Shown here piece by piece: positions 1 to 34,392 of a stretch of DNA of 34,392 bases. Source of the DNA: Raineya orbicola. Lineage in GTDB: Bacteria; Bacteroidota; Bacteroidia; Cytophagales; Thermonemataceae. Below the pieces are notes generated by a model. The model did not search any database, was not told where the DNA came from, and saw only the letters and a program-made list of their open reading frames with translations. Position 1 is the first letter of the stretch, and each line of letters opens with the position of its first letter. Position numbers and translations under genes: made by a program. The stretch spans positions 1 to 34,392 of the forward strand of contig NZ_NKXO01000037.1 of assembly GCF_002843425.1 (NCBI RefSeq), in the 5' to 3' direction.

Positions 1-42
1 TTCTGTTTGTAAAAGCAGGAGGATTTCTAATAAATTTGGCAT
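1..42 (-). CDS. Start of a putative transposase, cut by the window edge
   Basis: The - strand has ATG at 40-42 followed by 13 open codons to base 1, giving a leucine-rich start (MPNLLEILLLLQTE). The identical start occurs at 34351 on the + strand. The frame sits directly downstream of a hairpin that includes the start codon. Its presence in both terminal repeats suggests it is the transposase of the flanking IS, but no catalytic motif is visible, so this is inferred from position. Confidence 0.45.
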   Translation of the reverse strand, partial: MPNLLEILLLLQTE

Positions 43-86
43 TTTTTTTAGGTTAATCGTTGGAAAATTTTCCTAAATAAATGCCA
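37..86. repeat. Hairpin covering the start codon of the putative transposase (left copy)
   Basis: Arms 37-52 and 72-86 are complementary over 15 pairs with one bulged base. The arm at 37-52 contains the complement of the transposase ATG (40-42). The perfect palindrome ggaaaattttcc (62-73) overlaps the inner end of the second arm, so it is an alternative pairing. In a transcript entering from the window side, the start codon would be paired. Several IS families use such a fold to block translation of read-through transcripts; applying that here is inference. Confidence 0.55.
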
Positions 87-174
87 TTTTTTTATTTTTC
101 CAAATACCTCAATTGGCGGTCATATTGAACTTTGCAACAGAATTTTATTACAACTCCAACCCAAATTTTATGTT

Positions 175-477
175 ATGTTAGTAGAAGTTTTGAATTTTGA
201 GCCTGAAAAATTAGAAAAAGCCGCTTACATTTTGAAAGCGATTGCTCACCCTGTACGTATTCAAATCATTGCTTTACTAAATGAAAACAAGCGTATGAAT
301 GTATCGGAGCTATTAGAAATTATCGGCATTGACCAAGGATTACTCTCTCACCACCTTATCAATATGAAAGATAAAGGCATTTTGGGTTGTGAAAGGGAAG
401 GTAAAAATATTTATTACTTTATCAAAGAAACTGCTATTGTAGGCGTTTTGGATTGCATTAGAAAATGTAAAATATAA
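175..477 (+). CDS. ArsR-family helix-turn-helix regulator, probable sulfur sensor
   Basis: A 100-residue winged-helix regulator. The ArsR pattern is clear: AHPVRIQIIALL (residues 24-35), recognition helix around GIDQGLLSHHLINMK (51-65), and the wing EREGKNIYYF (73-82). It is the first gene of a + strand run of sulfur genes and begins 46 bases from the IS end. ArsR proteins at the head of such clusters (BigR, SqrR) sense persulfide through two cysteines, one early in the protein and one late. Here the cysteines are C72, C94 and C98, so the usual early cysteine is missing. Sulfur sensing is inferred from context. The ATG at 170 is closed after three codons, so 175 is the start. Confidence 0.85.
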   Translation: MLVEVLNFEPEKLEKAAYILKAIAHPVRIQIIALLNENKRMNVSELLEIIGIDQGLLSHHLINMKDKGILGCEREGKNIYYFIKETAIVGVLDCIRKCKI

Positions 478-559
478 TCCTTTGAAAAAATTCTACCAAA
501 AATTGAACTTTTGGAAATCCTTTTGAGTTTTACATATAAACAAATAAATATAAGTAAAT

Positions 560-1369
560 ATGCAAGAAATAATCGGTTATATTTTAGCTTCTCTTATTGG
601 AATATCGTTGGGTTTAATTGGTGGAGGTGGCTCAATACTTACGGTGCCTGTGCTGGTATATGTTATGGGTGTAAATCCTACACTTTCTACGGCTTATTCA
701 TTATTTATAGTAGGCATTACGGCATTGGTGGGTTCTTTTGCATATTTTCAGAAAAAATTGATTAGTCTAAAAACCGCCATAGTTTTTTCTGTACCTTCTT
801 TTATTTCTGTTTTTGCTGTTAGGAAATACATAGTACCTGCTATTCCAAAAGAAATCTTGCATATCGGGAGTTTTACTCTGACCAAAGACATTTTCTTAAT
901 GGTAATTTTTGCTTTGCTAATGATTTTCGCTTCGGTTTCAATGATAAGAGATAAAAAGAAAAGCAGTGAAAATTCTGACGAAAATCAAGAACCAAAATTT
1001 AATTTTCCGCTTATATTTGTAGAAGGCTTGGTGGTAGGAGCCATTACTGGTCTTGTGGGTGCAGGCGGAGGTTTTATGATTATTCCTGCACTGGTAGTAT
1101 TTGCCAAATTACCTATGAAAATGGCTGTCGGAACTTCACTACTCATTATTGCCGCAAAATCACTCATTGGTTTTGTAGGTGATGTAATGAACCCCGAACT
1201 AACGATTGATTGGACTTTACTGATTATATTCTCCCTGATAGCAACGATTGGTATTTTTGTGGGTTCGTATCTTTCCAACTTTATTACCGGAGCAAAACTT
1301 AAAAAGGCTTTCGGCTGGTTTGTTGCAGTAATGGGCGTGTATATTTTACTCAAAGAACTTTTGAAATAA
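560..1369 (+). CDS. TauE/SafE (TSUP) family membrane exporter, probable sulfite/sulfonate exporter
   Basis: A 269-residue hydrophobic protein with the two-fold internal repeat of the TSUP family: GLIGGGGSILTVPVLV near residue 19 and GLVGAGGGFMIIPALV near residue 165, each opening a bundle of membrane helices, with a charged cytoplasmic loop (about 135-148) between them. Family members export sulfite or sulfoacetate or move other small sulfur anions across the inner membrane. It lies between the ArsR gene and the persulfide dioxygenase, the usual place of TauE genes in persulfide-detoxification operons, so export of the sulfite made by the next gene is the likely job. Substrate is inferred. 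Confidence 0.85.
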   Translation: MQEIIGYILASLIGISLGLIGGGGSILTVPVLVYVMGVNPTLSTAYSLFIVGITALVGSFAYFQKKLISLKTAIVFSVPSFISVFAVRKYIVPAIPKEILHIGSFTLTKDIFLMVIFALLMIFASVSMIRDKKKSSENSDENQEPKFNFPLIFVEGLVVGAITGLVGAGGGFMIIPALVVFAKLPMKMAVGTSLLIIAAKSLIGFVGDVMNPELTIDWTLLIIFSLIATIGIFVGSYLSNFITGAKLKKAFGWFVAVMGVYILLKELLK

Positions 1370-1417
1370 TGTTGAAATTTTTGCACTTTTTACCTATAAA
1401 TTTAACCTAAAAAACGT

Positions 1418-2845
1418 ATGAAAGTAGAACAAATTTACACAGGATGTTTGGCACAAGGTGCTTATTACATCCAATCTGGCAACGAAGTAGCTATCATTGA
1501 CCCCCTTCGTGAAGTAGATGCTTATATTCAGAAAGCTGAAAAAAATGGTGCGAAAATCAAGTACGTACTTGAAACACATTTCCACGCCGATTTCGTTTCA
1601 GGACACTTGGATTTGGCAAAAAAAACAGGAGCCAAAATTGTTTTCGGTCCTAACGCCAAACCTGCTTATGAGGCTTACATTGCCCAAGATGGCGAAGAGT
1701 TGCCTTTGGGAAATACCAAAATCAAGGTAATTCATACACCCGGGCATACAATGGAATCTACTTGCTTTTTGCTGTACAATGAACAAGGCAAAGAATATGC
1801 CCTTTTCACAGGCGATACTTTGTTTATTGGCGATGTAGGTCGTCCTGATTTGGCTCAAAAAGTAAAAGATGACCTCACCCAAGAAAAACTCGCCAGCCAT
1901 TTGTACGACTCGCTTCACAATAAAATTATGCCCTTGCCTGATGATATTATCGTATATCCTGCTCACGGTGCGGGTTCAGCTTGCGGTAAAAATATGAGTA
2001 AAGAAACCTTTGATACACTCGGACATCAAAAGCAAGTAAATTACGCTTTGCAACCGATGAGCCGTGAAGAGTTTATTCAGAAAGTTACCGAAGGATTACT
2101 TCCTCCCCCCTACTATTTTCCTCAAAATGTAGTGATGAACATCAAAGGCTACACTAGCTTTGATGATGTAATGAAAAATGCCTTGAAACCTCTCAGCCCT
2201 GACGAATTGGAAATGGTAGTAGAGGCTCACGGAGCTTTGGTATTAGACTCTCGCAAACCCGATGACTTTGTGAAAGGTTTTGTTCCCCGCTCTATCAATA
2301 TCGGCTTGAATGGTGATTTTGCCGTATGGGTCGGAACGCTTATTACCGATATTAAGCAACCACTTGTAATAGTTACCTATAACGACCGCATAGAAGAAAC
2401 TATCACTCGCTTGGCTCGTGTGGGCTACGAAAATGTATTAGGATATTTGAAAGGGGGCTTTGAGGCTTGGAAACAAGCAGGTAAAGAAGTTGATGAAATT
2501 GAAACTATCACCGCTCAAGAACTTGAAGAACGCTTGAAAAAAGAAGGCGATAAAGCCAAAGTAATTGATGTTCGCAAGCTCGCCGAATACTACTCTCAGC
2601 ACGTAGTAAATGCTACACACGCTCCTTTGGCGTATATCAATGAGCATATGGCAGATTTTGCCCCTGACAAAACCAACTATGTACATTGTGCGGGTGGTTA
2701 TCGTTCGGTAATTGCTTGCTCTATCCTCAAAGCAAGAGGTATTCACAATGTAGTAAATATTGCAGGCGGTTTCAAAGCCATTTCCGAACAAAGTCAAATT
2801 CCTGTTACTGACTATGTGTGTGCTTCAACAATGACACAACTATAA
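1418..2845 (+). CDS. CstB-like persulfide dioxygenase fused to two rhodanese domains
   Basis: A 475-residue cytoplasmic enzyme. Residues 1-240 are a metallo-beta-lactamase fold of the ETHE1 type: HFHAD (54-58), HTPGH (106-110), TGDTLF (131-136) and PAHG (181-184) supply the single-iron ligands. Residues about 265-355 form a rhodanese-like domain whose active loop reads TYNDRIEE, with no cysteine, so it is a pseudo-rhodanese. Residues about 365-455 form a second rhodanese with active loop CAGGYRS, catalytic Cys424. This dioxygenase, pseudo-rhodanese, rhodanese order is that of CstB, which oxidises low-molecular-weight persulfides to sulfite and turns it into thiosulfate. Length and layout are complete. 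It follows the TauE gene by 48 bases. Confidence 0.92.
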   Translation: MKVEQIYTGCLAQGAYYIQSGNEVAIIDPLREVDAYIQKAEKNGAKIKYVLETHFHADFVSGHLDLAKKTGAKIVFGPNAKPAYEAYIAQDGEELPLGNTKIKVIHTPGHTMESTCFLLYNEQGKEYALFTGDTLFIGDVGRPDLAQKVKDDLTQEKLASHLYDSLHNKIMPLPDDIIVYPAHGAGSACGKNMSKETFDTLGHQKQVNYALQPMSREEFIQKVTEGLLPPPYYFPQNVVMNIKGYTSFDDVMKNALKPLSPDELEMVVEAHGALVLDSRKPDDFVKGFVPRSINIGLNGDFAVWVGTLITDIKQPLVIVTYNDRIEETITRLARVGYENVLGYLKGGFEAWKQAGKEVDEIETITAQELEERLKKEGDKAKVIDVRKLAEYYSQHVVNATHAPLAYINEHMADFAPDKTNYVHCAGGYRSVIACSILKARGIHNVVNIAGGFKAISEQSQIPVTDYVCASTMTQL

Positions 2846-2861
2846 GATAAAATAGGATTTC

Positions 2862-2886
2862 GGAGGCAGGAGTTTCTCCTGCTTCC
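2862..2886 (+). terminator. Hairpin after the persulfide dioxygenase gene
   Basis: Arms 2862-2872 and 2876-2886 pair over 10 of 11 positions around a 3-base loop, 16 bases after the stop at 2845. No T-run follows, so it may be a weak terminator or an mRNA processing/stability structure that lowers expression of the rhodanese genes behind it. Confidence 0.4.
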
Positions 2887-2917
2887 TTACCCAAAGAATA
2901 AACCATAAAAAAGTTTT

Positions 2918-3331
2918 ATGAAACAAATCGCTATTTTATCCCTTGCTTTTCTAATGCTTTTAAGTGCGTGTAGCGACGCTCAAAGAAAATCAGATAATCA
3001 AAACTCTACAACTATGTATAAAAACTTAAGTGCAAATGAATTTGAAAAAGGTATGACTGCCTCTAATGCAGTGATTATTGATGTGCGTACCCCTATGGAA
3101 TACAACGAAGGGCATATCAAGAATGCCAAACTGATAGATATCTATGGCAGAGATTTCGCCAGTGAAATTGAAAAACTGGATAGAAATAAAGCTTACTATG
3201 TGTATTGCCGTAGTGGCAATAGAAGCAGTAGTGCCGCAGGATTTATGGTAAGCAAAGGTTTTACCAAAGTCTATAATCTTAATGGAGGCATTGGAGCTTG
3301 GATTAACAATGGAAAACCTTTGGAACGTTAA
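2918..3331 (+). CDS. Rhodanese-domain lipoprotein
   Basis: A 137-residue single-domain sulfurtransferase. The N-terminus is a lipoprotein signal, with lipobox LSAC and the lipidated Cys at residue 18, followed by a polar linker to about residue 33. The rhodanese domain has IDVRTPMEY (54-62) and active loop CRSGNRSS with catalytic Cys97. It would therefore act in the periplasm, anchored to a membrane, moving sulfane sulfur between donors such as thiosulfate or polysulfide and an acceptor thiol. The next gene encodes a cytoplasmic rhodanese only 12 bases downstream, so the two act on opposite sides of the inner membrane. The acceptor is unknown. Confidence 0.9.
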   Translation: MKQIAILSLAFLMLLSACSDAQRKSDNQNSTTMYKNLSANEFEKGMTASNAVIIDVRTPMEYNEGHIKNAKLIDIYGRDFASEIEKLDRNKAYYVYCRSGNRSSSAAGFMVSKGFTKVYNLNGGIGAWINNGKPLER

Positions 3332-3343
3332 AAAACTACAGCT

Positions 3344-3661
3344 ATGTTTGATTTCCTAAAAAATATTTTTGGAGGTGGCGGAAGCCAAGAAAATTTGGCA
3401 CAAGCCATAGCAGAAGGAGCCTTTTTGGTAGATGTCCGCACCCCCGGCGAGTTTAAGTCGGGTAGTGCCAAAGGTGCTGTAAATATTCCATTGGATAGCT
3501 TACAGGCAAATCTACAAAGATTTAAGGATAAGAATAAAATTGTAGTCTTTTGCCGTAGTGGCAATCGTAGTGCTCAGGCTAAAGCATTTTTAGAAAAAAA
3601 TGGCTTTCAGAATGTAATCAATGGTGGTACTTGGCAAAATGTTGCTCAATACACGAAATAA
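3344..3661 (+). CDS. Cytoplasmic single-domain rhodanese
   Basis: A 105-residue rhodanese of the GlpE/PspE size class with no signal peptide. LVDVRTPGEF (28-37) and the active loop CRSGNRSA with catalytic Cys70 are intact, and the C-terminal NGGTW motif closes the fold. The glycine-rich stretch at residues 10-13 is a flexible N-terminal lead. It sits 12 bases after the lipoprotein rhodanese and one base before the DUF6132 gene, so it is co-transcribed with them. Likely role: sulfur transfer from thiosulfate or persulfide to a thiol carrier, perhaps the thioredoxin encoded nearby. Confidence 0.9.
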   Translation: MFDFLKNIFGGGGSQENLAQAIAEGAFLVDVRTPGEFKSGSAKGAVNIPLDSLQANLQRFKDKNKIVVFCRSGNRSAQAKAFLEKNGFQNVINGGTWQNVAQYTK

Positions 3662-3662
3662 G

Positions 3663-3863
3663 ATGGTGTATCTAAAAAAATATAAATTGTATATTCTTGG
3701 TGCTGTGTTGGGGGCTTTGGCAGGTTGGGCATACTGGTACTATGTAGGTTGCCATAGCGGTACTTGTGCTATCACTTCCAAACCCCTGAATAGCTCCTTG
3801 TATGGCTTGGTAATGGGTATGCTTTTTCTGGGTATTTTTGATAAATCAGATAGTCGGAAATAA
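3663..3863 (+). CDS. DUF6132-family small membrane protein
   Basis: A 66-residue protein with two membrane segments (about 7-24 and 42-60) joined by a loop with two cysteines in GCHSGTCAIT (about 29-38). This loop and the small size match the DUF6132 family of Bacteroidota, often found beside rhodanese and thioredoxin genes; its function is unknown. The frame opens earlier at 3621, but that start lies inside the rhodanese gene; the ATG at 3663 follows the rhodanese stop by one base and gives the usual family N-terminus. The loop cysteine pair could take part in thiol chemistry at the membrane, which is speculation. Confidence 0.75.
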   Translation: MVYLKKYKLYILGAVLGALAGWAYWYYVGCHSGTCAITSKPLNSSLYGLVMGMLFLGIFDKSDSRK

Positions 3864-3917
3864 ATCTCCATTACTCTGTACTAACTACTCAATACTATGT
3901 ACTCAAACTAAAAAACT

Positions 3918-4211
3918 ATGTCATTCCAAGAAATTATCAATTCCGATAAGCCCGTATTGGTAGATTTTTCTGCCGAATGGTGCGGACCTTGCCGAATGCT
4001 TGCCCCTATTTTGCAGGAAGTAAAGGCAGAAATTGGTGATAAAGCCTCTATTATCAAAGTAGATGTAGATAGAAACCCACAAGCCGCCCAACATTACAAT
4101 ATTATGGGAGTGCCTACACTCATTCTTTTCAAAAAAGGGCAAATTCTTTGGCGACAAAGTGGTGTTGTTCCCAAAAATCTTTTAATAAACGTTTTACAAA
4201 AATTTGCTTAA
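3918..4211 (+). CDS. Thioredoxin
   Basis: A 97-residue classical thioredoxin. The active site WCGPC is at residues 21-25, the cis-proline loop reads MGVPT, and the fold ends with GVVPKNLL. There is no signal peptide, so it is cytoplasmic. Thioredoxins reduce disulfides and accept sulfur from rhodaneses. Its place directly after two rhodanese genes and before an SQR gene suggests a dedicated reductant releasing sulfide or regenerating the rhodanese cysteine, rather than the general housekeeping copy. The 54-base gap before it holds two imperfect copies of an 11-base word (3872-3882 and 3893-3903). Confidence 0.93.
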   Translation: MSFQEIINSDKPVLVDFSAEWCGPCRMLAPILQEVKAEIGDKASIIKVDVDRNPQAAQHYNIMGVPTLILFKKGQILWRQSGVVPKNLLINVLQKFA

Positions 4212-4215
4212 TTTT

Positions 4216-4246
4216 TTTGGCAAACAAAAAAAATTTAATATATTTG
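4216..4246 (+). promoter_or_regulatory. Bacteroidota-type promoter for the gene at 4312
   Basis: TTTG at 4216-4219, a 19-base spacer, and TATATTTG at 4239-4246 match the Bacteroidota consensus TTTG-N19-TAnnTTTG at every fixed base. Transcription would start near 4253, giving a leader of about 60 bases. It shows that the next gene can be expressed apart from the upstream rhodanese/thioredoxin operon. Confidence 0.65.
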
Positions 4247-4311
4247 TATAAATAAATATGCTTTTTTAAGCATACATTTTTATGAAAATATTTTAATAAT
4301 TATTGTTGTTT

Positions 4312-4671
4312 ATGGTAGAAATATCAGAGAAATTTCTTTGGCGAAAAATAGAATGGCAATTAGAACTTTGGAACTCCAAACTTCGCTCTTTTCTTTTGGG
4401 CGAAGATAGTTGGGAAAACTACTTAAAAAATGGCAGTAAAGAAGAAAATACTTTTATAGAGATTTTAGAACAACTCAAAGAGCGTAATCCTAAAATAGCT
4501 CAAATATTGACCACTAACTATGAAAACACAAAAATATTTGCTCTAAAACTTATAGAAATGCGAAAAAAGGGATTTTCTTTATTAGAAATTGGCGAAAAAT
4601 ACAAAGAGTACGAGGAAAAATATTGTATGCCTTTCAAGAAATTTTTACAAGAAATGCAATCAAATTCTTAA
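4312..4671 (+). CDS. Uncharacterised 119-residue protein inside the sulfur island
   Basis: I do not recognise this family. The ATG at 4312 is preferred to the TTG codons at 4303 and 4306. The protein is soluble, charged and rich in lysine, glutamate and aromatic residues, with no signal peptide or membrane segment. It looks mostly helical, with two long amphipathic stretches (about 38-70 and 75-118 of the 119), and has one cysteine near the end (KYCMPF). It has its own consensus promoter and is followed 41 bases later by the sulfide:quinone oxidoreductase gene, so it may be co-expressed with that enzyme. A small regulator or partner protein is possible; nothing in the sequence decides. Confidence 0.7.
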   Translation: MVEISEKFLWRKIEWQLELWNSKLRSFLLGEDSWENYLKNGSKEENTFIEILEQLKERNPKIAQILTTNYENTKIFALKLIEMRKKGFSLLEIGEKYKEYEEKYCMPFKKFLQEMQSNS

Positions 4672-4712
4672 TTTCTAAATTTTTTGCTTATTAACCTTAA
4701 AATTCAATCTGT

Positions 4713-5909
4713 ATGGCAAAACATCATCAGATTATCGTAGTAGGTGGCGGAAATGCGGGTATTTCGGTTTCTGCCCAACTTTTGCGTAAAAATGGCAATT
4801 TGGATATTGCCATTATTGAGCCTTCGGATAAGCACTATTACCAACCTGCTTGGACACTTGTAGGTGGCGGCGACTTTGATATACTCAAAACCGTTCGCCC
4901 TATGGAAAGTGTGATGCCTCCTAAGGCTAAATGGATAAAAGAGCGTTGTGCTTCTTTCCAACCCGAAGAAAATCAAATAACACTTGCTAACGGCGAAAAA
5001 TTAACTTACGATTTTCTTATTGTAGCGGCGGGCATTCAATTGGATTGGGACAAAGTAAAAGGTTTGAAAGAAACTCTGGGCAAAAATGGGGTGTGCAGTA
5101 ATTATAGTTTTGAAACTGCTCCTTACACTTTTGAGTGTATCAAAAACTTAAAGCAAGGAAAAGCCATTTTCCACAACCCTCACACTCCCGTAAAATGTGG
5201 AGGTGCTCCTCATAAAATAATGTATCTTGCCGCTGACTACTTCCGCAAACACGGCGTTTTAGACAAAATTGATATTCAATATTGGAGCGGTGCCGCCAAG
5301 CTCTTTGCTGTACCCAAATATGAAAAAACACTTTTAGAAGTAGTAAAACGAGGTAATATCAAGCTCAATTTTATGCAAAAATTAGAAGAAATTGATGCAA
5401 ATAACAAAAGAGCCCGTTTTGTAGGCATTGGGGAAAACAACAAAGACCAAGAAACGTGGGTAGAATACGATATAATTCACGTTACGCCTCCCCAATCTGC
5501 TCCTGATTTTATCAAGACAAGCTCCCTGGCTAACGCAGGAGGTTGGGTAGATGTCAATGTCAATACCTTGCAACATAGTAAATACAAAAATATTTTCTCC
5601 TTGGGCGATAGTTCGGGGCTTCCTACTTCCAAAACAGGTGCCGCCATACGCAAGCAAGCTCCTATTTTGGTAGCCAACTTGTTTAGTGCAATGGAAGGCA
5701 AACCATTAGTAGCTTCTTACAATGGCTATACCTCCTGCCCTTTGGTTACAGGCTACGGCAAACTCGTACTCGCTGAATTTGATTATAATCAACAACCACA
5801 GGAAACTTTCCCCTTTGACCAGTCCAAAGAACGTTGGTCTATGTACCAACTCAAAAGACACGTACTCCCTTGGCTTTATTGGAACAAAATCTTGAAAGGA
5901 ACAGCTTAA
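4713..5909 (+). CDS. sqr: Sulfide:quinone oxidoreductase, type II (SQOR-like)
   Basis: A 398-residue FAD flavoprotein that oxidises sulfide and passes electrons to quinone at the membrane. The FAD-binding GGGNAG is at residues 11-16, and HYYQPAWTLVGGG (41-53) and a second FAD contact SLGDSSGLPTSKTGAAI (296-312) follow. The two redox cysteines are Cys162 in KCGGAPHK and Cys342 in TSCPLVTGYG. The C-terminus has ETFPFDQSKER and PWLYWNKILKG, as in mitochondrial SQOR, which places it in the type II group; that group lacks the third conserved cysteine and usually passes sulfur to a small thiol acceptor. That fits the persulfide dioxygenase upstream. It ends at a hairpin at 5923. Confidence 0.93.
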   Translation: MAKHHQIIVVGGGNAGISVSAQLLRKNGNLDIAIIEPSDKHYYQPAWTLVGGGDFDILKTVRPMESVMPPKAKWIKERCASFQPEENQITLANGEKLTYDFLIVAAGIQLDWDKVKGLKETLGKNGVCSNYSFETAPYTFECIKNLKQGKAIFHNPHTPVKCGGAPHKIMYLAADYFRKHGVLDKIDIQYWSGAAKLFAVPKYEKTLLEVVKRGNIKLNFMQKLEEIDANNKRARFVGIGENNKDQETWVEYDIIHVTPPQSAPDFIKTSSLANAGGWVDVNVNTLQHSKYKNIFSLGDSSGLPTSKTGAAIRKQAPILVANLFSAMEGKPLVASYNGYTSCPLVTGYGKLVLAEFDYNQQPQETFPFDQSKERWSMYQLKRHVLPWLYWNKILKGTA

Positions 5910-5922
5910 TAAGCATACTTGC

Positions 5923-5954
5923 ACAAAGGCATACCCTATGGCGTATGCCTTTGT
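5923..5954 (+). terminator. Strong hairpin after the SQR gene
   Basis: Arms 5923-5934 and 5943-5954 form a perfect 12-bp stem with an 8-base loop, 13 bases after the SQR stop. The following bases are mixed T and A (TAAAAAA) instead of a T-run, so termination may be partial. It separates the SQR unit from the cytochrome unit. Confidence 0.55.
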
Positions 5955-6208
5955 TAAAAAATGCTTGTATTTTTATATGTTTATTATTTTAATTTTATTA
6001 ACTTTGCTCTCGGTTTTTTCTATAGCCCAAACTCAACCGATATGTAAATTTTATGCTTTCAAAAAGTGTTAAAAAATATTTTTATCTAAATTTTTAAACC
6101 AAAAATCAGTAGGGTTACACTTTTAGGTAAAAATATATGCAGAATAAAATAAATTTTCAACTATTAAACCTTTGAGAATTAAACGATTGAACCTAACTCA
6201 TAAAAACT
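5955..6208 (+). other. AT-rich intergenic region before the cytochrome gene
   Basis: These 254 bases hold no gene. TAACTTTG at 5999-6006 matches the -7 element TAnnTTTG but lacks a good TTTG 19-20 bases upstream, so it is only a weak promoter candidate. No palindrome strong enough to call an operator was found. Confidence 0.3.
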
Positions 6209-7279
6209 ATGAAGAGCGACAATCAAAACAACGATACTCTTATTCTTACCATTGCAAAAGCTACTCAAACCATTGTACTCTTGTTTGTGCTAGCTATTTT
6301 GGTGGTTGTTATTGGCATTATTGAAGCAAATACACACGCTATTTATAAAGCCTTCAACCAGCCTGAAATGAACACAACTGATAGCTTGGCTCAAAAACAA
6401 GAAGCTAAACCTGACTATTGGGTTGCCCCTGATGTAGCTACTATTCCCAATAGCCCCGAAGGAGAACTCATTAAATATGGGCGAGAACTGATTGCTCATA
6501 CTGCCAAATATTTAGGTCCCGAAGGTTCGGTAATGCAAATTTCCAACGGAATGAACTGCCAAAATTGTCATTTAGAGGCAGGCACAAAACCCTATGGCAA
6601 TAACTACGGCTCGGTAGCCTCTACTTATCCGAAGTTTAGGGCAAGGTCTGGCACTATGGAAAATATCTACAAGCGTGTCAATGATTGCTTTGAACGCAGT
6701 CTGAATGGGAAGCCCTTAGATACCAACAGCAAAGAAATGCAGGCTATCAAAATCTATATTGAGTGGCTTGGCAAAGGTGTTCCCAAAGGCAAAGAAGCAA
6801 AAGGTTCAGGTATTGTAGATTTGCCTTTCTTGGATAGAGCCGCCGACCCTGTCAGAGGTAAAATCGTTTATGAACAAAAATGTGCTTCTTGCCACAAAAA
6901 AGATGGTAGTGGCGAGCTGAAACCCGATGGTAAAGAATGGCTCTATCCACCTCTTTGGGGCGAGAAAAGCTATAACCACGGAGCAGGTTTGTATCGTCTT
7001 TCTCGCTTTGCGGGCTACGTAAAGTATAATATGCCTTTGGGAGTAAGCTATCCCGAATCGCAACTGACTGATGAAGAGGCTTGGGACGTTGCCGCTTACA
7101 TCAATTCTATGCCTCGCCCAAGCAAAGATTTGAGCAAAGACTGGCCCGATATTTCTAAAAAACCACTTGACCACCCTTTTGGTCCTTTTGCTGATGGCTT
7201 TGATGAAAAACAACATAAGTTTGGTCCTTTCAAACCTATTAAGGAAAAAAGAGAAACAAGAACAAAACAAAGAAAATAA
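6209..7279 (+). CDS. Membrane-anchored diheme cytochrome c, TsdA-like thiosulfate dehydrogenase
   Basis: A 356-residue protein with one N-terminal membrane helix (about 18-40) and no clear cleavage site, then a periplasmic part with two cytochrome c domains. Heme 1 is bound by CQNCH (117-121), heme 2 by CASCH (225-229). RVNDCFERSLNGKPL (156-170) carries Cys160 at the place where TsdA enzymes and relatives have a cysteine axial heme ligand, and NMPLG with Met275 suits the second heme. TsdA joins two thiosulfates into tetrathionate or does the reverse. The C-terminal tail is rich in lysine and arginine. Context (SQR, rhodaneses, YeeE/YedE) supports a thiosulfate substrate; direction of the reaction cannot be read from sequence. 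Confidence 0.8.
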   Translation: MKSDNQNNDTLILTIAKATQTIVLLFVLAILVVVIGIIEANTHAIYKAFNQPEMNTTDSLAQKQEAKPDYWVAPDVATIPNSPEGELIKYGRELIAHTAKYLGPEGSVMQISNGMNCQNCHLEAGTKPYGNNYGSVASTYPKFRARSGTMENIYKRVNDCFERSLNGKPLDTNSKEMQAIKIYIEWLGKGVPKGKEAKGSGIVDLPFLDRAADPVRGKIVYEQKCASCHKKDGSGELKPDGKEWLYPPLWGEKSYNHGAGLYRLSRFAGYVKYNMPLGVSYPESQLTDEEAWDVAAYINSMPRPSKDLSKDWPDISKKPLDHPFGPFADGFDEKQHKFGPFKPIKEKRETRTKQRK

Positions 7280-7325
7280 TTTTACCAGCCCATTATTAAA
7301 ATGCGAATAACTACAAATTTAAGCA

Positions 7326-7601
7326 ATGATGACTACCGCAAATATACAAAGTAATGCTTTTCAGCTTGGCTTGCGACCCAACTGGAAGCAGTTTGCTCTG
7401 CTTGTGGTAGTTAATGCTTTTGTAGGAGCAATGATTGGCTTGGAGCGAAGTATTTTTCCTGATTTTGCAGAAAAAATATTTGGTATTACTTCTACAACGG
7501 CTGTTTTGTCTTTTATCATTGCTTTTGGCATAAGCAAAGCCATAACTAATTATTTCACGGGAAAACTTGTAAATCGTTTCGGTAGAAAAAAATTTTGGTA
7601 A
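7326..7601 (+). CDS. MFS transporter, N-terminal part (frame broken at 7586-7592)
   Basis: The first 91 residues of a major facilitator transporter: two membrane helices and the cytoplasmic loop 2-3 signature GKLVNRFGRKK. The frame then runs into a stop at 7599-7601 just after a run of seven A (7586-7592). Adding one A, or slipping back one base, joins this part to the frame at 7595, which continues the same protein with helices 3 to 12. So this is half of one gene, split by a single-base change, and not a separate protein. See the following entry for the rest and for context. Confidence 0.75.
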   Translation: MMTTANIQSNAFQLGLRPNWKQFALLVVVNAFVGAMIGLERSIFPDFAEKIFGITSTTAVLSFIIAFGISKAITNYFTGKLVNRFGRKKFW

Positions 7602-8551
7602 TAGGCTGGCTTTTAGCCTTGCCCATTCCTTTTTTATTGATTTGGGCTTATAGTTGGTCTTGGGTCATACTTGCCAATATGTTCTTGGGCATCAGTCAGG
7701 GAATTACGTGGAGCAGTGCCGTAATTATGAAAATAGACCTTGTTGGTGAAAGGCAAAGAGGGTTAGCAATGGGTTTCAACGAATTTGCGGGTTACTTTTC
7801 GGTAGGTGCTATGGCTTGGATAAGCACTTGGATAGCAAGTGAATATGGCATAAAGCCGTATCCATTTTATTTGGGCATTGCTATTGCTACAATCGGCTTG
7901 CTTCTGAGTGCCATTTGGGTAAAAGATACCACCCCTTTTGTAAAGATAGAAGCTCAACAAAGCACATTCAGCCATCATCAGAATATTTTTTGGGCTACTA
8001 CCCTCAAAGATAAAAACCTGAGTAGTATCACACAAGCAGGTTTTGTGAATAATTTCAATGATGGTATGATGTGGGGACTTTTCCCAATATTTTTGGCAAA
8101 ACTATTCTTCGAAAACTCTCAAATAGGTTTTTTAGTGGCTTTGTATCCTGCGGTTTGGGGGATAGCCCAACTTATTACAGGCAGGCTTGCTGACCTTTAT
8201 TCCAAAAAGAAAATGCTATTTTGGGGAATGTTGGCTCAAGGGATTGCTATTTCCGCTTTACCTGCCTTCACCGCCTTTACGCCTATTGCCATAGTAGCTA
8301 TTTTACTGGGTTTAGGAACAGCTTGGGTATATCCTACTTTTTTAGCAGGAGTAGCCTCAATGGCTCACCCTACCCAAAGAGCAGAAAGTTTGGGAACTTT
8401 TCGTTTCTGGCGAGATATGGGCTATGCTGTTGGGGCTTTGCTTTCAGGAATTATTGCGGATATCTGGAGTATAGATTGGGCGATTTTGAGCGTAGGTCTG
8501 ATAACTATCTTTTCAGCTTTGATTATTCAAATTCGTATGAACGCAAACTAA
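7595..8551 (+). CDS. MFS transporter, C-terminal part (same gene as 7326-7601)
   Basis: 318 residues with about ten membrane helices, continuing the transporter begun at 7326. It has no plausible start of its own (the frame opens at a TTG inside the upstream frame). KIDLVGERQRGLAMGFNEFAGY and GRLADLYSKKKM (the second-half loop signature) are MFS features. The complete protein would be about 408 residues, normal for the family. It sits between the TsdA-like cytochrome and an OprD-like porin (7 bases apart), so it could carry a small sulfur anion or organic acid across the inner membrane, with the porin serving the outer membrane. Substrate unknown. Confidence 0.75.
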   Translation: MVIGWLLALPIPFLLIWAYSWSWVILANMFLGISQGITWSSAVIMKIDLVGERQRGLAMGFNEFAGYFSVGAMAWISTWIASEYGIKPYPFYLGIAIATIGLLLSAIWVKDTTPFVKIEAQQSTFSHHQNIFWATTLKDKNLSSITQAGFVNNFNDGMMWGLFPIFLAKLFFENSQIGFLVALYPAVWGIAQLITGRLADLYSKKKMLFWGMLAQGIAISALPAFTAFTPIAIVAILLGLGTAWVYPTFLAGVASMAHPTQRAESLGTFRFWRDMGYAVGALLSGIIADIWSIDWAILSVGLITIFSALIIQIRMNAN

Positions 8552-8558
8552 TAAAGCT

Positions 8559-9944
8559 ATGAAACGTATAATTTTCATTATTTTTTGGGCAATGAGTAGC
8601 AGTATTTGGGCACAAGAAAAGGAAACTGCCAAAGATACAAATACATTGCTTTATTATCTCAAAAATGGTAAATGGCAAGGACATATCCGAAATTACTTGA
8701 TGGCTACCGATAATGGTAGAAAAGAACTTACCGACTACTATGCAAATGCTTTGGGCATAGATATTCATTATGAAACCACCCATTGGAAAGGCTTTACAGC
8801 GGGTTTTACAACCAGTTTTGTTTATAATACGGCTTCTTCGGATTTAGGCAAGCCTGATAGCCTCACTCAGCAATTTAATCGTTATGAAATTGGGCTTTTT
8901 GATTTAGCCAAACCCTATCAAGCTCTTATTGGTAGAATTGACGAACTGTATTTGAGCTATGCTTGGGATAAATCTAAATTAGTTTTTGGCAAGCAAAAAC
9001 TAATTACCCCTTGGGTCAATCCGCAAGATGGACGTATGCGTCCTAATTTTCAGGAAGGGATTTATCTGGATTGGCAAGATGTAAAAAACTTACGTGTAGA
9101 AATGGCTTGGCTCTATCGTTTTTTGGTGCGTTCTACTGAAAAATGGTTGTCTATTGCTAATAGTATAGGTCAATATCCTTCGGGAGTAACCCCTGACGGA
9201 GTACGTTCAGGGTATAGCAAGAACCTTTCTAGTGCAGGCTTGGGTATTGTAGGAGTAACTTATACAATTTCCCCGCTAATCAAAACGCAACTTTGGAATT
9301 ATTTTACAGAAAACATTTTCAATACCACTTTTTGGCAGATAGAAACAGAATTTTCTTTACAAAAAGAAAGCTCTCGCAAACTTCTGTTGGGTTTGCAATT
9401 GCATTACCAAACAGCCCTCAGTAACGGCGGTAATTCTGACCCTAATCTGGCATATATTCCTAAAAATCAAAGAAATTGGGCTTTGAGCAGTAGAGTGGGT
9501 TGGAAAAATGAAAATTCACAAATTACTTTCAACTACACGCGTATAGGTAATTTAGGAAGATTTCTACTCCCAAGAGAATGGGGCAGAGACCCCTACTATA
9601 CCTTCTTGCCACGCGAAAGAAACGAAGGCTTTGGAGATGTAAATGCCTTTATGATGCAGTATAGCCAAAATATTTCGAAAATAAAAACTAAAATAGAATT
9701 AGCTTATGGGCATTACATTTTACCTGATGCCCGCAATACTTCGCTGAACAAATATGCTTTCCCCAGCTACAATCAAATTAATGCGAATATTGTTCATCAA
9801 TTCAGAGGGATTCTTAAAGGCTTACAGGGGCAATTTTTATACGTATATAAAGGTGCTGTAGGCGAGTTATATGAAGATCCACGTTTGGAGTTCAACAAAG
9901 TAAATATGCACTTGTATAACCTGATTTTCAACTATAATTTCTAA
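8559..9944 (+). CDS. OprD-like outer-membrane porin
   Basis: A 461-residue beta-barrel protein. A signal peptide ends at about residue 18 (IWA, before QEKE), and the chain ends in phenylalanine (NYNF), as outer-membrane barrels do. GHIRNYLMATDN near residue 41, the following YYANALG segment and GKQKLITPWVNPQDGRM near residue 142 resemble OprD-family porins. Alternating polar/aromatic strands run throughout. OprD relatives pass small anionic or basic solutes. It lies 7 bases after the MFS gene and 12 bases before the DsrE gene, suggesting co-transcription and a shared solute route across the envelope. The solute is inferred to be a sulfur compound from the neighbours only. Confidence 0.75.
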   Translation: MKRIIFIIFWAMSSSIWAQEKETAKDTNTLLYYLKNGKWQGHIRNYLMATDNGRKELTDYYANALGIDIHYETTHWKGFTAGFTTSFVYNTASSDLGKPDSLTQQFNRYEIGLFDLAKPYQALIGRIDELYLSYAWDKSKLVFGKQKLITPWVNPQDGRMRPNFQEGIYLDWQDVKNLRVEMAWLYRFLVRSTEKWLSIANSIGQYPSGVTPDGVRSGYSKNLSSAGLGIVGVTYTISPLIKTQLWNYFTENIFNTTFWQIETEFSLQKESSRKLLLGLQLHYQTALSNGGNSDPNLAYIPKNQRNWALSSRVGWKNENSQITFNYTRIGNLGRFLLPREWGRDPYYTFLPRERNEGFGDVNAFMMQYSQNISKIKTKIELAYGHYILPDARNTSLNKYAFPSYNQINANIVHQFRGILKGLQGQFLYVYKGAVGELYEDPRLEFNKVNMHLYNLIFNYNF

Positions 9945-9956
9945 ACAAAAACTCTT

Positions 9957-10379
9957 ATGAAACGAAGTTTTCTACTTACACTCTTTCTAATATTTGGACT
10001 TGGTGCAACTTGGGCTCAGAATAATAAAACCAAACAGCACAAGGTAGTTATTCAGCTCACTACCCCTGATACAGCGGCTTATAGAGCTTTATCCAAACAG
10101 CTCAATAATCTTATTTCAGTATGGAAAGATGCCGATGTAGTAGTGGTGGTGCATAACAAAGGTATCAATATGCTTAAAAAAAATACCTCCAATGTGTCTG
10201 AAGAAATCAAGCAACTTTCAGGACGTGGTGTGAAGTTTTTGGCTTGCGAATTTACTATGCAACAACAAAAACTCACCAAAGAGGATATGTTAGAAGGAAT
10301 TTTTTACACGCCTTATGGCTTGATAGAAATCATCACAAGGCAAGAAAACGGTTATCATTACCTCAAGGGAGGATTTTAG
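9957..10379 (+). CDS. Periplasmic DsrE-family protein
   Basis: A 140-residue protein with a signal peptide cleaved after about residue 20 (TWA). The rest is a DsrE/DsrF-like alpha/beta fold: KVVIQLTTPD opens the first strand, VVVVVHNKGI the second, and GVKFLACEFTMQ carries the conserved Cys97 that bears sulfur in this family. DsrE-type proteins carry or store sulfane sulfur, and exported versions are common in Bacteroidota sulfur clusters. Here it would work in the periplasm beside the TsdA-like cytochrome and feed or collect sulfur at the YeeE/YedE transporters encoded next. The partner is inferred. Confidence 0.82.
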   Translation: MKRSFLLTLFLIFGLGATWAQNNKTKQHKVVIQLTTPDTAAYRALSKQLNNLISVWKDADVVVVVHNKGINMLKKNTSNVSEEIKQLSGRGVKFLACEFTMQQQKLTKEDMLEGIFYTPYGLIEIITRQENGYHYLKGGF

Positions 10380-10437
10380 CAAAGTTTTTACAAGCAATTT
10401 TAACAAAATACAACCATAACTTAAACCTAATACACCT

Positions 10438-11004
10438 ATGTTAGAACTTCTAAAACAACCCTGGCATTGGGCGGTAGCTGGTATTATTATCGGACTTACC
10501 GTTCCTACTTTGCTTATTTTAGGCAACAAAAAGTTTGGCATTTCCTCTTCAATGAGGCACATATGTGCCGCTTGTATGCCTGCTAATATTCCTTTTTTCA
10601 AATATGATTGGAAAAAGGAAGTATGGAATTTATTTTTTGTGGCAGGTGTGCTTATCGGTGGATTTATTGCTTCTACTTTTCTTTCCAACCCCGAACCTAT
10701 TCAGGTAGCTCAAGCTACGAAAGAACGTTTAATAGAATGGGGTATTCAAGATTTTCAGAGTCTTCTGCCTACTGAAATATTTAGTATCAATAGCCTGCTT
10801 ACACTAAAAGGATTTATTTTCTTCGTAGTAGGTGGCTTCTTGGTTGGCTTTGGAGCCCGTTATGGAGGTGGTTGTACATCAGGACACGCCATTATGGGGC
10901 TTTCTAACTTACAATTGCCTTCGCTTGTGGCTACCATTAGCTTTATGCTTGGTGGCTTTTTCTCTGCTAATGTGATTTTACCCTTATTATTCAAATTGTT
11001 TTAG
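10438..11004 (+). CDS. YeeE/YedE-family thiosulfate/sulfur transporter, first half (PmpA/PmpB-like)
   Basis: A 188-residue membrane protein with about four or five helices. The family signature GFGARYGGGCTSGHAIMG (137-154) has the conserved Cys146, and an extra pair Cys43/Cys46 lies in HICAACMP. In YeeE (TsuA), conserved cysteines line the path along which thiosulfate is passed through the membrane. Here the transporter is split into two proteins, this one and the next gene 24 bases downstream, like the PmpA/PmpB pairs in BigR-type sulfur operons. Whether the imported species is thiosulfate or polysulfide is not known. Confidence 0.85.
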   Translation: MLELLKQPWHWAVAGIIIGLTVPTLLILGNKKFGISSSMRHICAACMPANIPFFKYDWKKEVWNLFFVAGVLIGGFIASTFLSNPEPIQVAQATKERLIEWGIQDFQSLLPTEIFSINSLLTLKGFIFFVVGGFLVGFGARYGGGCTSGHAIMGLSNLQLPSLVATISFMLGGFFSANVILPLLFKLF

Positions 11005-11028
11005 TTACACCTAAAAATTTGTAAAACT

Positions 11029-11529
11029 ATGGCTACTATTCAAACACAAGACCCGCAAATAGATGTACGTCATCAAGATGCAATGTGTACCAACGAATCA
11101 CAACTCAAACACCCTTGGTGGCACAACCTAAAATACACTTTGGTTGGAATTATCTTTGGTATTACTTTCGTAAAAGCCGAAATCATAAGTTGGTACAGAA
11201 TACAAGAAATGTTCCAATTAACTTCCTTTCATATGTACGGGGTAATAGGTACGGCTGTGGTGGTAGGAGCAATTTCTGTGTTTTTTATCAAAAAAACACG
11301 AGCCAAAACGATTTACGGCGAGCCAATCACCCTTGATGATAAAAAATTTAATAAAGGACAAATTTTTGGAGGGCTGATTTTTGGTTTAGGTTGGGCAATT
11401 ACGGGGGCTTGTCCTGGTCCTTTGTATGCTCAAATTGGAGCAGGTTTTGGCGTGGTTTTCGTTACTCTACTCAGTGCCATTTTGGGTACTTGGGTATATG
11501 GATATTTTCGTGAAAAATTGCCTCATTAA
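11029..11529 (+). CDS. YeeE/YedE-family transporter, second half (DUF6691-like)
   Basis: A 166-residue membrane protein with about four helices and a longer hydrophilic N-terminus (1-30) that contains an additional Cys20. The signature GLGWAITGACPGPLYAQIG (119-137) holds the conserved Cys128. It is the partner of the preceding half-transporter; the two conserved GxxxGCxxG-like segments probably face each other to form the thiosulfate path. It is the last intact gene of the sulfur island and is followed by a hairpin at 11549. Confidence 0.85.
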   Translation: MATIQTQDPQIDVRHQDAMCTNESQLKHPWWHNLKYTLVGIIFGITFVKAEIISWYRIQEMFQLTSFHMYGVIGTAVVVGAISVFFIKKTRAKTIYGEPITLDDKKFNKGQIFGGLIFGLGWAITGACPGPLYAQIGAGFGVVFVTLLSAILGTWVYGYFREKLPH

Positions 11530-11548
11530 GGCACACGCTATTCTGGCT

Positions 11549-11576
11549 TTGCCAAGAGCTAACGCACTCTTGGCAA
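11549..11576 (+). terminator. Hairpin at the end of the YeeE/YedE operon
   Basis: Arms 11549-11558 and 11567-11576 form a perfect 10-bp stem with an 8-base loop, 20 bases after the stop at 11529. No T-run follows, so it is a structural end signal of moderate certainty. Confidence 0.5.
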
Positions 11577-11619
11577 GCTACAAAAGATAAGAAGTTATTA
11601 TGCTATAAATTTTTATTGT

Positions 11620-11955
11620 ATGAGAAAGATATTTTGGGCTATTATAACCATAAGCATTCCTATTACTTTTTTCCTATTTCCCAAAGACGAAAAGAAAAAA
11701 GAAAATCCTTATCACAGCAAAACCACTTTGGAAAGGCTCATTGAGGGTAACAAACGTTTTGTAAAAGGAGATTTTATTGCACCCAACCGCAGTGAAGAAC
11801 GCAGATTACAAACCCTTTCAGGGCAACAACCCTTTGCCGCAGTGCTTACCTGCTCTGACTCTCGCATTTCTCCTACCCTATTTTTTGATACAGGTATTGG
11901 AGATTTGTTTATTGTCAGAACCGCAGGTAATGTAAAATGCCTTACCTTCCCATAA
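11620..11955 (+). pseudogene. Beta carbonic anhydrase, truncated after its first half
   Basis: 111 residues. An N-terminal hydrophobic segment (about 4-20) marks an exported or membrane-bound form; then LIEGNKRFVKG (40-50) and CSDSR (78-82, first zinc ligand Cys78 and the Asp/Arg pair) lead to RTAGN (100-104). At this point homology stops: the next residues KCLTFP are unrelated, and the second half with the HxxC zinc ligands is missing. Beta carbonic anhydrases need about 200 residues, so no active enzyme can form. The break at about 11930 is followed by non-coding sequence, suggesting a deletion or recombination joint. Confidence 0.8.
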
Positions 11956-11987
11956 AATTTTCTTGTTAAATAAGCATACTAAAAGTT

Positions 11988-12039
11988 GCCACGAATGCAC
12001 ACAAATAACCTCTCATTTATAATTCGTGTTATTCGTGGC
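11988..12039. repeat. Inverted repeat of a dispersed type in the gap after the broken carbonic anhydrase
   Basis: gccacgaat at 11988-11996 is the exact complement of attcgtggc at 12031-12039; further inward the arms match only in part. It lies at the presumed joint between the sulfur island and the alpha-2-macroglobulin gene. Words of this type (cgaattcacgaat-like) recur as intergenic repeats in many genomes; whether this one does here cannot be tested in one window. Confidence 0.4.
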
Positions 12040-12078
12040 TTACAATAAAAAATTTCACCTAAAAATTTACTTTTACCA

Positions 12079-29984: not shown

Positions 29985-30686
29985 TTATGCTTCTTTTTGA
30001 GTTTTGGTAGATTTCTTTTTGGGCTTTTCTATTTCCGAAGTGGTTTCTTGCTCTTGGGTAGTCTCGGTTTTCTTTTTAGTAGAACGTGCCTTCTTGGGTT
30101 TTTCTTCGCTTGCAGGCTCTTCTACTTTACTTTCAACTTCGGTAGTTTCTGACTTCTTTTTAGTGGAACGTGTTTTTTTAGGTTTTTCTACTTCGGTATT
30201 ATTTTCGTTTGAGGTTTCTACGGCTTTTTTATCTATGGTTTCGGGTTGAATTTCTGCCTGTGTAGGACTTTCGGCAACTGGTTCAGCTTTTCTCACGAGC
30301 ACATCAGGAACTTCACGGAACAAAATTTCATACCATTTTACAAGTTTCTTAACATCAGAAGGATATACTTTTTCGCTATTGTATTCAGGTAAAATTTCCT
30401 CAATGAAAGCCATCAAATCGGCTGTATCGGCTTTGGCATTGATAGGCAAAGAGCCTTGATATTTTTCGTGCATCTTGTACAAAACCTCCTCCAATGCAAC
30501 AGAGCCTTCTTGGGTAGTAGTGTAGATAGAAATTTCTTTCAAGATAGAAACTTTTTCGGAAACGCCCACAGCCATTTTACGTTTTTGAGCGTCTAAAGTT
30601 TCTACAATTACCCCTGAACGAGCAGGCTTTAAGATACGAAATAAACCTTCTTTTCCCGAAATTGCGGCGATTTCTTTTAATTCCAT
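29985..30686 (-). CDS. DUF5606 protein with a lysine-rich repeat tail
   Basis: 233 residues. The first 140 or so match the DUF5606 family of Bacteroidota: LKEIAAISGKEGLFRIL (3-19), GVIVETLDAQKRKMAV (25-40) and YPSDVKKLVKWYEILF (107-122). Function is unknown. After about residue 140 the chain is a low-complexity acidic-then-basic tail in which a unit of the type KPKKxRSTKKKxET occurs two to three times, like histone H1-type tails, so nucleic-acid or ribosome contact is possible but unproven. It has a clear promoter (30715-30746) and terminator of its own. Confidence 0.85.
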   Translation of the reverse strand: MELKEIAAISGKEGLFRILKPARSGVIVETLDAQKRKMAVGVSEKVSILKEISIYTTTQEGSVALEEVLYKMHEKYQGSLPINAKADTADLMAFIEEILPEYNSEKVYPSDVKKLVKWYEILFREVPDVLVRKAEPVAESPTQAEIQPETIDKKAVETSNENNTEVEKPKKTRSTKKKSETTEVESKVEEPASEEKPKKARSTKKKTETTQEQETTSEIEKPKKKSTKTQKEA

Positions 30687-34242: not shown

Positions 34243-34284
34243 ATGAAAAAACTCATTTTTTCTTTCAATATGACCGCCAATTGA
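34243..34284 (+). pseudogene. Start of an exported-protein gene, cut by the IS insertion
   Basis: ATG at 34243 opens MKKLIFSF, typical of a signal peptide, and the frame ends at TGA 34282-34284. The unique part spans only 34243-34263; from 34264 the sequence is the IS repeat. The likely history is that the IS inserted about seven codons into a gene whose rest lies beyond the element. It is divergent from ccoG. Confidence 0.4.
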
Positions 34285-34306
34285 GGTATTTGGAAAAATA
34301 AAAAAA

Positions 34307-34356
34307 TGGCATTTATTTAGGAAAATTTTCCAACGATTAACCTAAAAAAAATGCCA
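34307..34356. repeat. Hairpin covering the start codon of the putative transposase (right copy)
   Basis: Arms 34307-34321 and 34341-34356 pair over 15 positions with one bulged A. The second arm includes the ATG at 34351-34353. Same structure as at 37-86. Confidence 0.55.
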
Positions 34357-34392
34357 AATTTATTAGAAATCCTCCTGCTTTTACAAACAGAA
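34351..34392 (+). CDS. Start of a putative transposase, cut by the window edge
   Basis: Fourteen open codons from the ATG at 34351 to the last base, identical in sequence to the - strand start at 42. Product inferred from its place in a repeated, IS-like end; no transposase motif is reached. Confidence 0.45.
   Translation, partial: MPNLLEILLLLQTE

Follow-up and report, generated by a model that had tools for sequence, protein, structure and literature searches.

Is the run of sulfur genes at the start of Raineya orbicola contig NZ_NKXO01000037.1 a complete system in one operon, or one copy of a wider gene cluster? The window analyzed here is the whole contig (34,392 bases, from a genome of 3.07 Mb in 104 contigs), and sixteen genes, all on the + strand, lie at 175–11955. 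They include genes for a sulfide:quinone oxidoreductase (SQR), a CstB-like persulfide dioxygenase-rhodanese and a TsdA-like dihaem cytochrome c. We show that this run is real and not unique, as it recurs in many Bacteroidota. What the window carries is probably a partly eroded version of a cluster that recurs among Bacteroidota and handles sulfide, sulfane sulfur and thiosulfate/tetrathionate.

Comparisons with Pfam, NCBIfam and PDB supported an ArsR-family regulator, TauE, a CstB-like protein, two single rhodaneses, thioredoxin, an SQR of the SQOR type, a TsdA-like protein, a major facilitator superfamily (MFS) transporter, an OprD-like porin, DsrE and two Sulf_transp/YeeE halves. These thirteen genes belong to families named in a preliminary description of this DNA, and its grouping of sulfur genes in one same-strand run was borne out by strand and family calls, though not clearly as a single transcription unit (see below). 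To its list we add a DUF6132 protein, a 122-aa protein and a carbonic anhydrase fragment.

To ask whether these genes belong together, the neighborhood of TsdA was compared in two sets of loci. In a phylum set of 395 genomes, the TsdA query matched 72 genomes at E ≤ 0.001 and 44 (46 matches, including that of the window) at E ≤ 1e-60; stretches of about 20 kb (a few of them shorter) were cut out around the 45 other matches. The named loci were the best 80 of 591 stretches that encoded a TsdA relative in a separate scan of contigs from named genomes, and 54 of the 80 exceed 20 kb. Twenty stretches away from TsdA, from 18 TsdA-carrying genomes, served as background, and the same query set and a single threshold were applied throughout.

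The genes do recur together in relatives, against the refuting outcome (never together) that the preliminary description had named. The most frequent partners near TsdA (named/phylum/background loci) were yeeE1 and yeeE2 (55/14/0 each), oprD (52/15/0), a SoxB-like hydrolase gene (47/10/0), cstB (45/13/0), dsrE (40/11/0) and tauE (35/12/0). They were followed by rhodC (20/5/0), thioredoxin (20/4/0), rhodP (18/7/0), MFS (10/3/0), SQR (8/0/0), DUF6132 (6/0/0), ArsR (4/0/0), carbonic anhydrase (2/1/0) and the 122-aa protein (1/0/0). In the named set nearly all partners lay on the TsdA strand (yeeE1 and yeeE2, 53/55 each; oprD, 51/52; SoxB-like, 47/47; cstB, 44/45; dsrE, 38/40; tauE, 34/35). All seven of tauE, cstB, oprD, dsrE, yeeE1, yeeE2 and the SoxB-like gene, which we call the core, were present in 13 of the 54 long named loci. 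Laboratory isolates that carry the full cluster include Runella zeae and Flavobacterium such as those of L154 and L162. SQR, CstB and TsdA occurred together in 8 of the 80 named loci (L127, L146, L148, L155, L172, L173, L182 and L193), and also in L243 of genome G068.

The SoxB-like gene is absent from the window. Two loci of the same genus allowed a direct comparison: L127, from an uncultured Cytophagales (90% TsdA identity), and L237, a 9.9-kb contig that runs from the end of cstB to dsrE. TsdA was found in 5 of the 8 genomes of the window's family; within the genus it is present in the window genome and in those of L127 and L237, and a fourth genome (G397) is without it. In both cluster-bearing congeners the gene order is kept, and sqr and tsdA are separated by genes for a SoxB-like hydrolase and a DUF2490 protein. 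The alignment jumps at this place, from 6034 to 6115 in the window against 7524 to 9909 in L127, and from 6009 to 6208 against 3310 to 5754 in L237. With the congener SoxB-like protein as query (tblastn), nothing better than E = 0.37 was found in the window. A SoxB-like query gave no match at E ≤ 1e-60 in the window genome, where a 31% partial match was the only one seen. By parsimony, the window lineage appears to have lost both genes. Contrary to the preliminary description, the system is not complete: besides the loss of these two genes, the MFS gene carries a frameshift and the carbonic anhydrase is truncated.

The SoxB-like proteins are 560–600 aa long with a Tat-like leader; in the named set they are the commonest enzyme beside TsdA, and the window lacks them. 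The best PDB match of the L127 protein is SoxB (2wdc). SoxB-like matches at E ≤ 1e-150 were found in 18 genomes. They lie within ∼12 kb of a TsdA match or fragment in 11 of these (G068, G339, G218, G142, G290, G190, G371, G292, G049, G186 and G300), and no TsdA match was listed within ∼12 kb in the other seven (G111, G194, G076, G375, G269, G367 and G103). A search of the window genome for SoxY (PF13501) gave no match, but the control genomes gave no signal either, and other Sox proteins were not searched for.

What kind of TsdA does the cluster encode? The window protein (Table 1) has a PF21342 (SoxA/TsdA-type) and a PF00034 (cytochrome c) domain. Among 125 relatives (the 80 named and 45 phylum loci), both haem motifs (Cys117/Cys120/His121 and Cys225/Cys228/His229) are kept in 125 of 125, as is Cys160, the haem-1 distal ligand, which aligns with the DCFERSLNG motif of Allochromatium vinosum TsdA. 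The haem-2 pair is Asn274-Met275, where A. vinosum has Lys-Met; the Asn is kept in 124 and the Met in all 125 of the relatives. Campylobacter jejuni TsdA, which is reported to act as a tetrathionate reductase, carries the corresponding Asn254/Met255 pair in place of the Lys-Met of A. vinosum; TsdA enzymes are called bidirectional, and exchange of Asn254 for Lys did not confer A. vinosum behavior (PMC5146829; PMC6879331). Given this bidirectionality and the outcome of the exchange, the window enzyme may work in either direction. The protein resembles the C. jejuni and A. vinosum enzymes in its two CXXCH haems, haem-1 Cys ligand and haem-2 Met, and the C. jejuni enzyme in its Asn-Met pair; it differs from both in an N-terminal membrane anchor and a conserved C-terminal tail past the part aligned to A. 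vinosum TsdA. Several relatives have, by eye, a lipoprotein-like N-terminus instead, so that anchoring seems to be kept while its type varies.

Two candidate readings around TsdA were set aside. Open frames of 704 and 713 aa in genome G068, considered as a TsdA fusion protein, were rejected as scaffold gaps of N. A proposed connection between a 750-aa neighbor (c68) and the TsdA tail was also dropped; by eye the neighbor reads as a catalase-peroxidase. Other surroundings of TsdA were noted in passing. A group with 38–41% identity (L070, L071, L074 and L076–L079) lies within a SusC/SusD-like block with a ∼470-aa arylsulfotransferase-like protein (by eye), and not with sulfur genes. In L049–L052, L057 and L058, TsdA is followed by dsrE and then by a 303–306-aa protein, of which the one member scanned matches ModA, and a LysR-like gene (by eye) is nearby in five of these six loci. 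A ∼230-aa protein with a Tat leader lies near TsdA in L053, L056, L060, L061, L069, L157, L192, L199, L201 and L203; the one member scanned had no other NCBIfam match.

Is the run one operon? A single operon was not supported, as a conserved promoter-like site precedes the 122-aa gene and sqr, and a conserved hairpin follows sqr, in three species. The spacing of the promoter-like site is 19 here and 20 in L127 and L237 (by eye), and the site is similar to what we take to be the Bacteroidota promoter consensus. Matches to TANNTTTG are frequent in the window (76 vs. 52.5 expected); therefore it is the conservation of the site, and not the motif match, that argues for it. The hairpin was not listed in a consensus terminator scan of the window. 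That scan, with its sigma-70 counterpart, gave 30 promoter-like sites (35.9 in shuffles) and 15 terminator-like sites (11.0, SD 2.8), and was not used. Since the promoter-like site and the hairpin divide the run, three units are more likely than one operon: regulator to thioredoxin, the 122-aa gene with sqr, and tsdA to the second YeeE half.

Table 1. Features of the window, with the observations that support each call.
Feature	Positions	Strand	Support
End of multicopy repeat, IS-like, element itself unassembled	1..129; second copy 34264..34392		96-100% identical copies, each at a contig end
ArsR-family regulator with Cys72, Cys94, Cys98	175..477	+	HTH_5 5.6e-10
TauE/SafE exporter	560..1369	+	PF01925 9.5e-42
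CstB-like persulfide dioxygenase-rhodanese	1418..2845	+	Metallo-beta-lactamase (MBL) plus 2 rhodanese stretches; PDB 3tp9, 3r2u over residues 4-454/455; rhodanese-loop Cys424
Rhodanese, lipoprotein-like N-terminus, Cys97	2918..3331	+	PF00581 2.3e-23; hydropathy
Rhodanese without signal, Cys70	3344..3661	+	PF00581 5.4e-16
DUF6132 protein	3621..3863	+	PF19628 1.1e-07
Thioredoxin	3918..4211	+	PF00085 1.8e-28
Promoter-like site TTG-N19-TATATTTG	4217..4246 (TATATTTG at 4239-4246)	+	Both elements kept in L127, L237
122-aa protein of no assigned family	4303..4671	+	No Pfam match
SQR, human SQOR type	4713..5909	+	412 bits to human SQOR 6mo6
Hairpin, 11-bp stem, terminator-like	5924..5953	+	3' of sqr; kept with changes in L127, L237
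Deletion scar: SoxB-like and DUF2490 genes gone; 5' remnant of DUF2490 gene near 5977-6034	6010..6208		Alignment jumps vs. L127, L237
TsdA-like dihaem cytochrome c, N-terminal hydrophobic anchor	6209..7279	+	172.6 and 170 bits to A. vinosum TsdA entries; hydrophobic stretch 10-46
MFS transporter split by frameshift	7326..8551 (pieces 7326-7601, 7595-8551)	+	PF07690 on both pieces, first below its cut-off
OprD-like outer-membrane porin	8559..9944	+	PF03573 2.8e-09
DsrE-like protein, signal-like N-terminus (by eye), Cys97	9957..10379	+	PF02635 2.5e-11
Short YeeE/YedE half, PmpA-like (C-terminal part of TsuA)	10438..11004	+	PF04143 1.1e-18; TsuA model positions 271-326
Short YeeE/YedE half, PmpB-like (N-terminal part of TsuA)	11029..11529	+	PF20398 and PF04143; TsuA model positions 6-109
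Truncated beta-carbonic anhydrase	11620..11955	+	PF00484 positions 2-33 of 156
Dispersed palindromic repeat	11986..12040		13 further matches in genome

The sulfide and persulfide genes were assigned to types from their domain order and Cys residues. CstB consists of an MBL dioxygenase, then a Cys-less rhodanese and then an active rhodanese domain. The window protein has this MBL-to-rhodanese order, full-length PDB relatives, no Cys between residues 190 and 423, and the loop Cys424. The SQR scored 410–412 bits against four SQOR sequences vs. ≤97 for other chains and keeps both redox Cys contexts of human SQOR (KCGGAP and SCPLVTGY); it is thus SQOR-like, which we take to be the type called II. 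The regulator reached 46.6 bits against the BigR family model, below its cut-off of 155. Its Cys98 column is invariant in the four of four sequences aligned. As regards the redox Cys pair of BigR/SqrR, the regulator has Ala at a position that is Cys in the alignment with YgaV, and Cys94 and Cys98 lie near the C-terminus. Rhodaneses on both sides of the inner membrane, as had been suggested, stand as a prediction: the upstream single rhodanese has a hydrophobic, lipobox-like start and the downstream one does not. The 122-aa protein has 74% identity over residues 3–118 in L237, and L127 and L236 match its residues 26–65 only.

Downstream of tsdA, the MFS gene lacks one base relative to L127, in an A7 run at 7586–7592. 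It is in one frame in both congeners (a 408-aa open reading frame in L127; a single tblastn match over 408 residues in L237). The adjacent YeeE halves match the C- and N-terminal parts of TsuA and so form a PmpA/PmpB-like pair; PmpA and PmpB are described as YeeE halves in PMC11582611. Of the carbonic anhydrase only the first part remains, and the dispersed palindromic repeat follows it; of the 13 other genome matches of this repeat, five are spaced by 83 bases on contig C19. The place of the carbonic anhydrase fragment, after the second YeeE half, is occupied in L127 (15353–17205) by genes for a methyltransferase, a CZB-domain protein and a Tll0287-like protein.

How might these proteins work together? 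In the cytoplasm, SQR would oxidize sulfide, with quinone accepting the electrons and a thiol the sulfane sulfur. CstB could then convert the persulfide to sulfite and couple this with sulfane sulfur to give thiosulfate, the rhodaneses and thioredoxin would move or reduce sulfane sulfur, and TauE would export sulfite or a related anion. In the periplasm, the anchored TsdA would interconvert thiosulfate and tetrathionate, with electrons going to cytochrome c and haem-copper oxidases; the genome has two COX1 genes, and FixH and a FixG-like protein are encoded in the window. The OprD-like porin would let anions pass the outer membrane. In many relatives, the SoxB-like hydrolase may split tetrathionate, and DsrE with the PmpA/PmpB-like halves may return sulfane sulfur to CstB. 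In the window genome the route should end at thiosulfate/tetrathionate, because the SoxB-like gene is deleted and no orthologue was found elsewhere in the genome. Such a route might, we infer, let the cell gain energy from sulfide. The proposal that the genes lead from sulfide through persulfide to thiosulfate and carry oxyanions in a Bacteroidota cell is the best available reading, but it has to be amended in that the system is incomplete here, probably forms several transcription units, includes SQR as a rare partner and has, in many relatives, a SoxB-like hydrolase that could not be seen from the window.

Several observations weigh against this reading of the cluster. As the best 80 of 591, the named loci favor the closest type; the phylum loci do so less, and among these the yeeE pair is absent from 31 of 45 TsdA stretches; other TsdA groups have quite different neighbors. 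SQR may be a local addition to the TsdA cluster, since at the threshold used it lies beside TsdA in just 8 of 80 named and none of 45 phylum loci; in the 395 genomes as a whole, SQR was matched in 154 (E ≤ 1e-30). The three SoxB-like proteins scanned have SoxB as their best NCBIfam match at 244–273 bits, below the cut-off of 550, and so fall outside TIGR04486; any sulfur substrate of theirs is therefore putative. No SoxB-like match was found within the stretches of L238 and L239 (the window's family, other genus; tsdA-oprD-yeeE-yeeE, TsdA identity 44–45%), nor within those of the 11 named loci titled Algoriphagus. Speaking against an oxidative role, added sulfide drew no response from tsdA transcripts in Bohai Sea sediment, in a study of the whole community and not of this cluster (PMC12345210). 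The MFS frameshift and the SoxB-like deletion may mean decay, and the locus could then be a relic whose pathway no longer works in the window genome; the missing DUF2490 gene and the truncated carbonic anhydrase would fit as well. The genes for SQR, TsdA, CstB, the OprD-like porin, DsrE and both YeeE halves are open, however, with 86–94% identity to the L127 proteins, and a sequencing error in a homopolymer could account for the frameshift. We consider a relic quite unlikely.

Could TsdA work in the opposite direction? As a tetrathionate reductase it would provide an extra electron acceptor and return thiosulfate rather than oxidize it. The Asn-Met pair, kept in 124 of 125 relatives and shared with the reductase of C. 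jejuni, speaks for this. Against it, the same reports describe TsdA enzymes as bidirectional, with an Asn254-to-Lys exchange that did not bring about A. vinosum behavior (PMC5146829; PMC6879331), and the partners SQR, CstB and SoxB-like hydrolase belong to the oxidative side. A reductive role appears improbable. It is also conceivable, if somewhat unlikely, that the locus serves detoxification only, with SQR, CstB and TauE clearing sulfide and persulfide and the TsdA part disposing of thiosulfate at no useful energy gain. The first unit is like bigR/cst detoxification operons in content, and CstB-like proteins (E ≤ 1e-40) occur in 218 of 395 genomes vs. 44 of 395 for TsdA (E ≤ 1e-60). The recurrent TsdA core, with its porin, importer-like halves and hydrolase, suits uptake over disposal. 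Returning to the reading of a cluster for sulfide, sulfane sulfur and thiosulfate/tetrathionate handling, we tentatively propose a more specific form of it, which is possible but short of an even chance: the Bacteroidota cluster may be a closed thiosulfate-oxidation cycle without SoxYZ. In such a cycle (i) TsdA would form tetrathionate; (ii) the SoxB-like hydrolase would split it; (iii) periplasmic DsrE and a PmpAB-type importer would return sulfane sulfur; and (iv) CstB would regenerate thiosulfate. The window would then be a natural deletion of the hydrolase step.

Sulfide detoxification operons of the bigR/cst type comprise an ArsR-type regulator, TauE, an MBL-rhodanese dioxygenase, short YeeE halves and SQR, all of which the window shares. 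It differs from them in having TsdA, the OprD-like porin and a DsrE with a signal, to which relatives add the SoxB-like gene, and in a regulator that falls below the BigR model. By analogy, the cluster of the relatives may be the Bacteroidota counterpart of the TsdA-SoxB-sulfur dioxygenase pathway known from Erythrobacter flavus 21-3. In that study, the TsdA-SoxB-SdoA/B pathway of thiosulfate oxidation is backed by mutants, genomes with both tsdA and soxB homologues are reported in Bacteroidetes, and SoxB is cited as having a part in the oxidation of tetrathionate by A. kashmirensis (PMC7608252). TsdA is common to that pathway and the window, and the relatives also share a SoxB-type hydrolase and an MBL-fold sulfur/persulfide dioxygenase. 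Unlike in E. flavus, the genes of the Bacteroidota relatives stand together in one locus, alongside a CstB-type fusion enzyme, PmpAB-like halves, DsrE and an OprD-like porin, and the SoxB-like protein is below the SoxB cut-off; the window copy has lost the gene for this hydrolase, which both cluster-bearing congeners keep. Among other Bacteroidota with tsdA, tsdA transcripts of Cecembia are reported from soda-lake sediment (PMC6704655) and Algoriphagus was assigned to the tetrathionate route (PMC12584484); the surrounding cluster is not described in the available parts of these reports. No description of the Bacteroidota cluster was found in the literature, as judged from listings and partial texts, with supplements and most subscription papers outside this survey. 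The parts and the core route are already known; the compact Bacteroidota locus, of which the window has an eroded example, would be a variant of them.

The contig itself ends in a repeat on either side. The copies at 1–129 and 34264–34392 are in opposite orientation, and the repeat occurs in at least 12 places on 11 contigs, including one copy on each of ten other contigs; these counts are lower bounds, as 40 of 101 candidates were scored. The repeat belongs to a multicopy element that breaks the assembly. Every listed copy lies at a contig end, so that the contig is bordered on either side by a multicopy element that is probably an IS. The position "next to an IS" given in the preliminary description is therefore probable, although Pfam scans of 28 protein entries of the window (18 + 10; a large histidine kinase-like protein, the proteins at 29985–30686 and 31356–32153 and small frames being left out) found no transposase. 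Directly downstream of the run is a large bacterial alpha-2-macroglobulin gene (12144–17642), which is also found downstream of the cluster in L127. Further on, the 1479-aa protein encoded at 23177–27616 looks like a sensor histidine kinase, and its translation shows a long internal duplication.

The mutant evidence for the TsdA-SoxB route comes from Erythrobacter flavus, and a locus as compact and recurrent as this in culturable Bacteroidota would open the route to tests in another phylum. With the SoxB-like gene lost in the window and kept in the cluster-bearing congeners, a natural contrast is at hand for this step. The cluster would also suggest functions for DsrE, PmpAB-like, OprD-like and SoxB-like proteins, and would help to annotate sulfur cycling by heterotrophic Bacteroidota.

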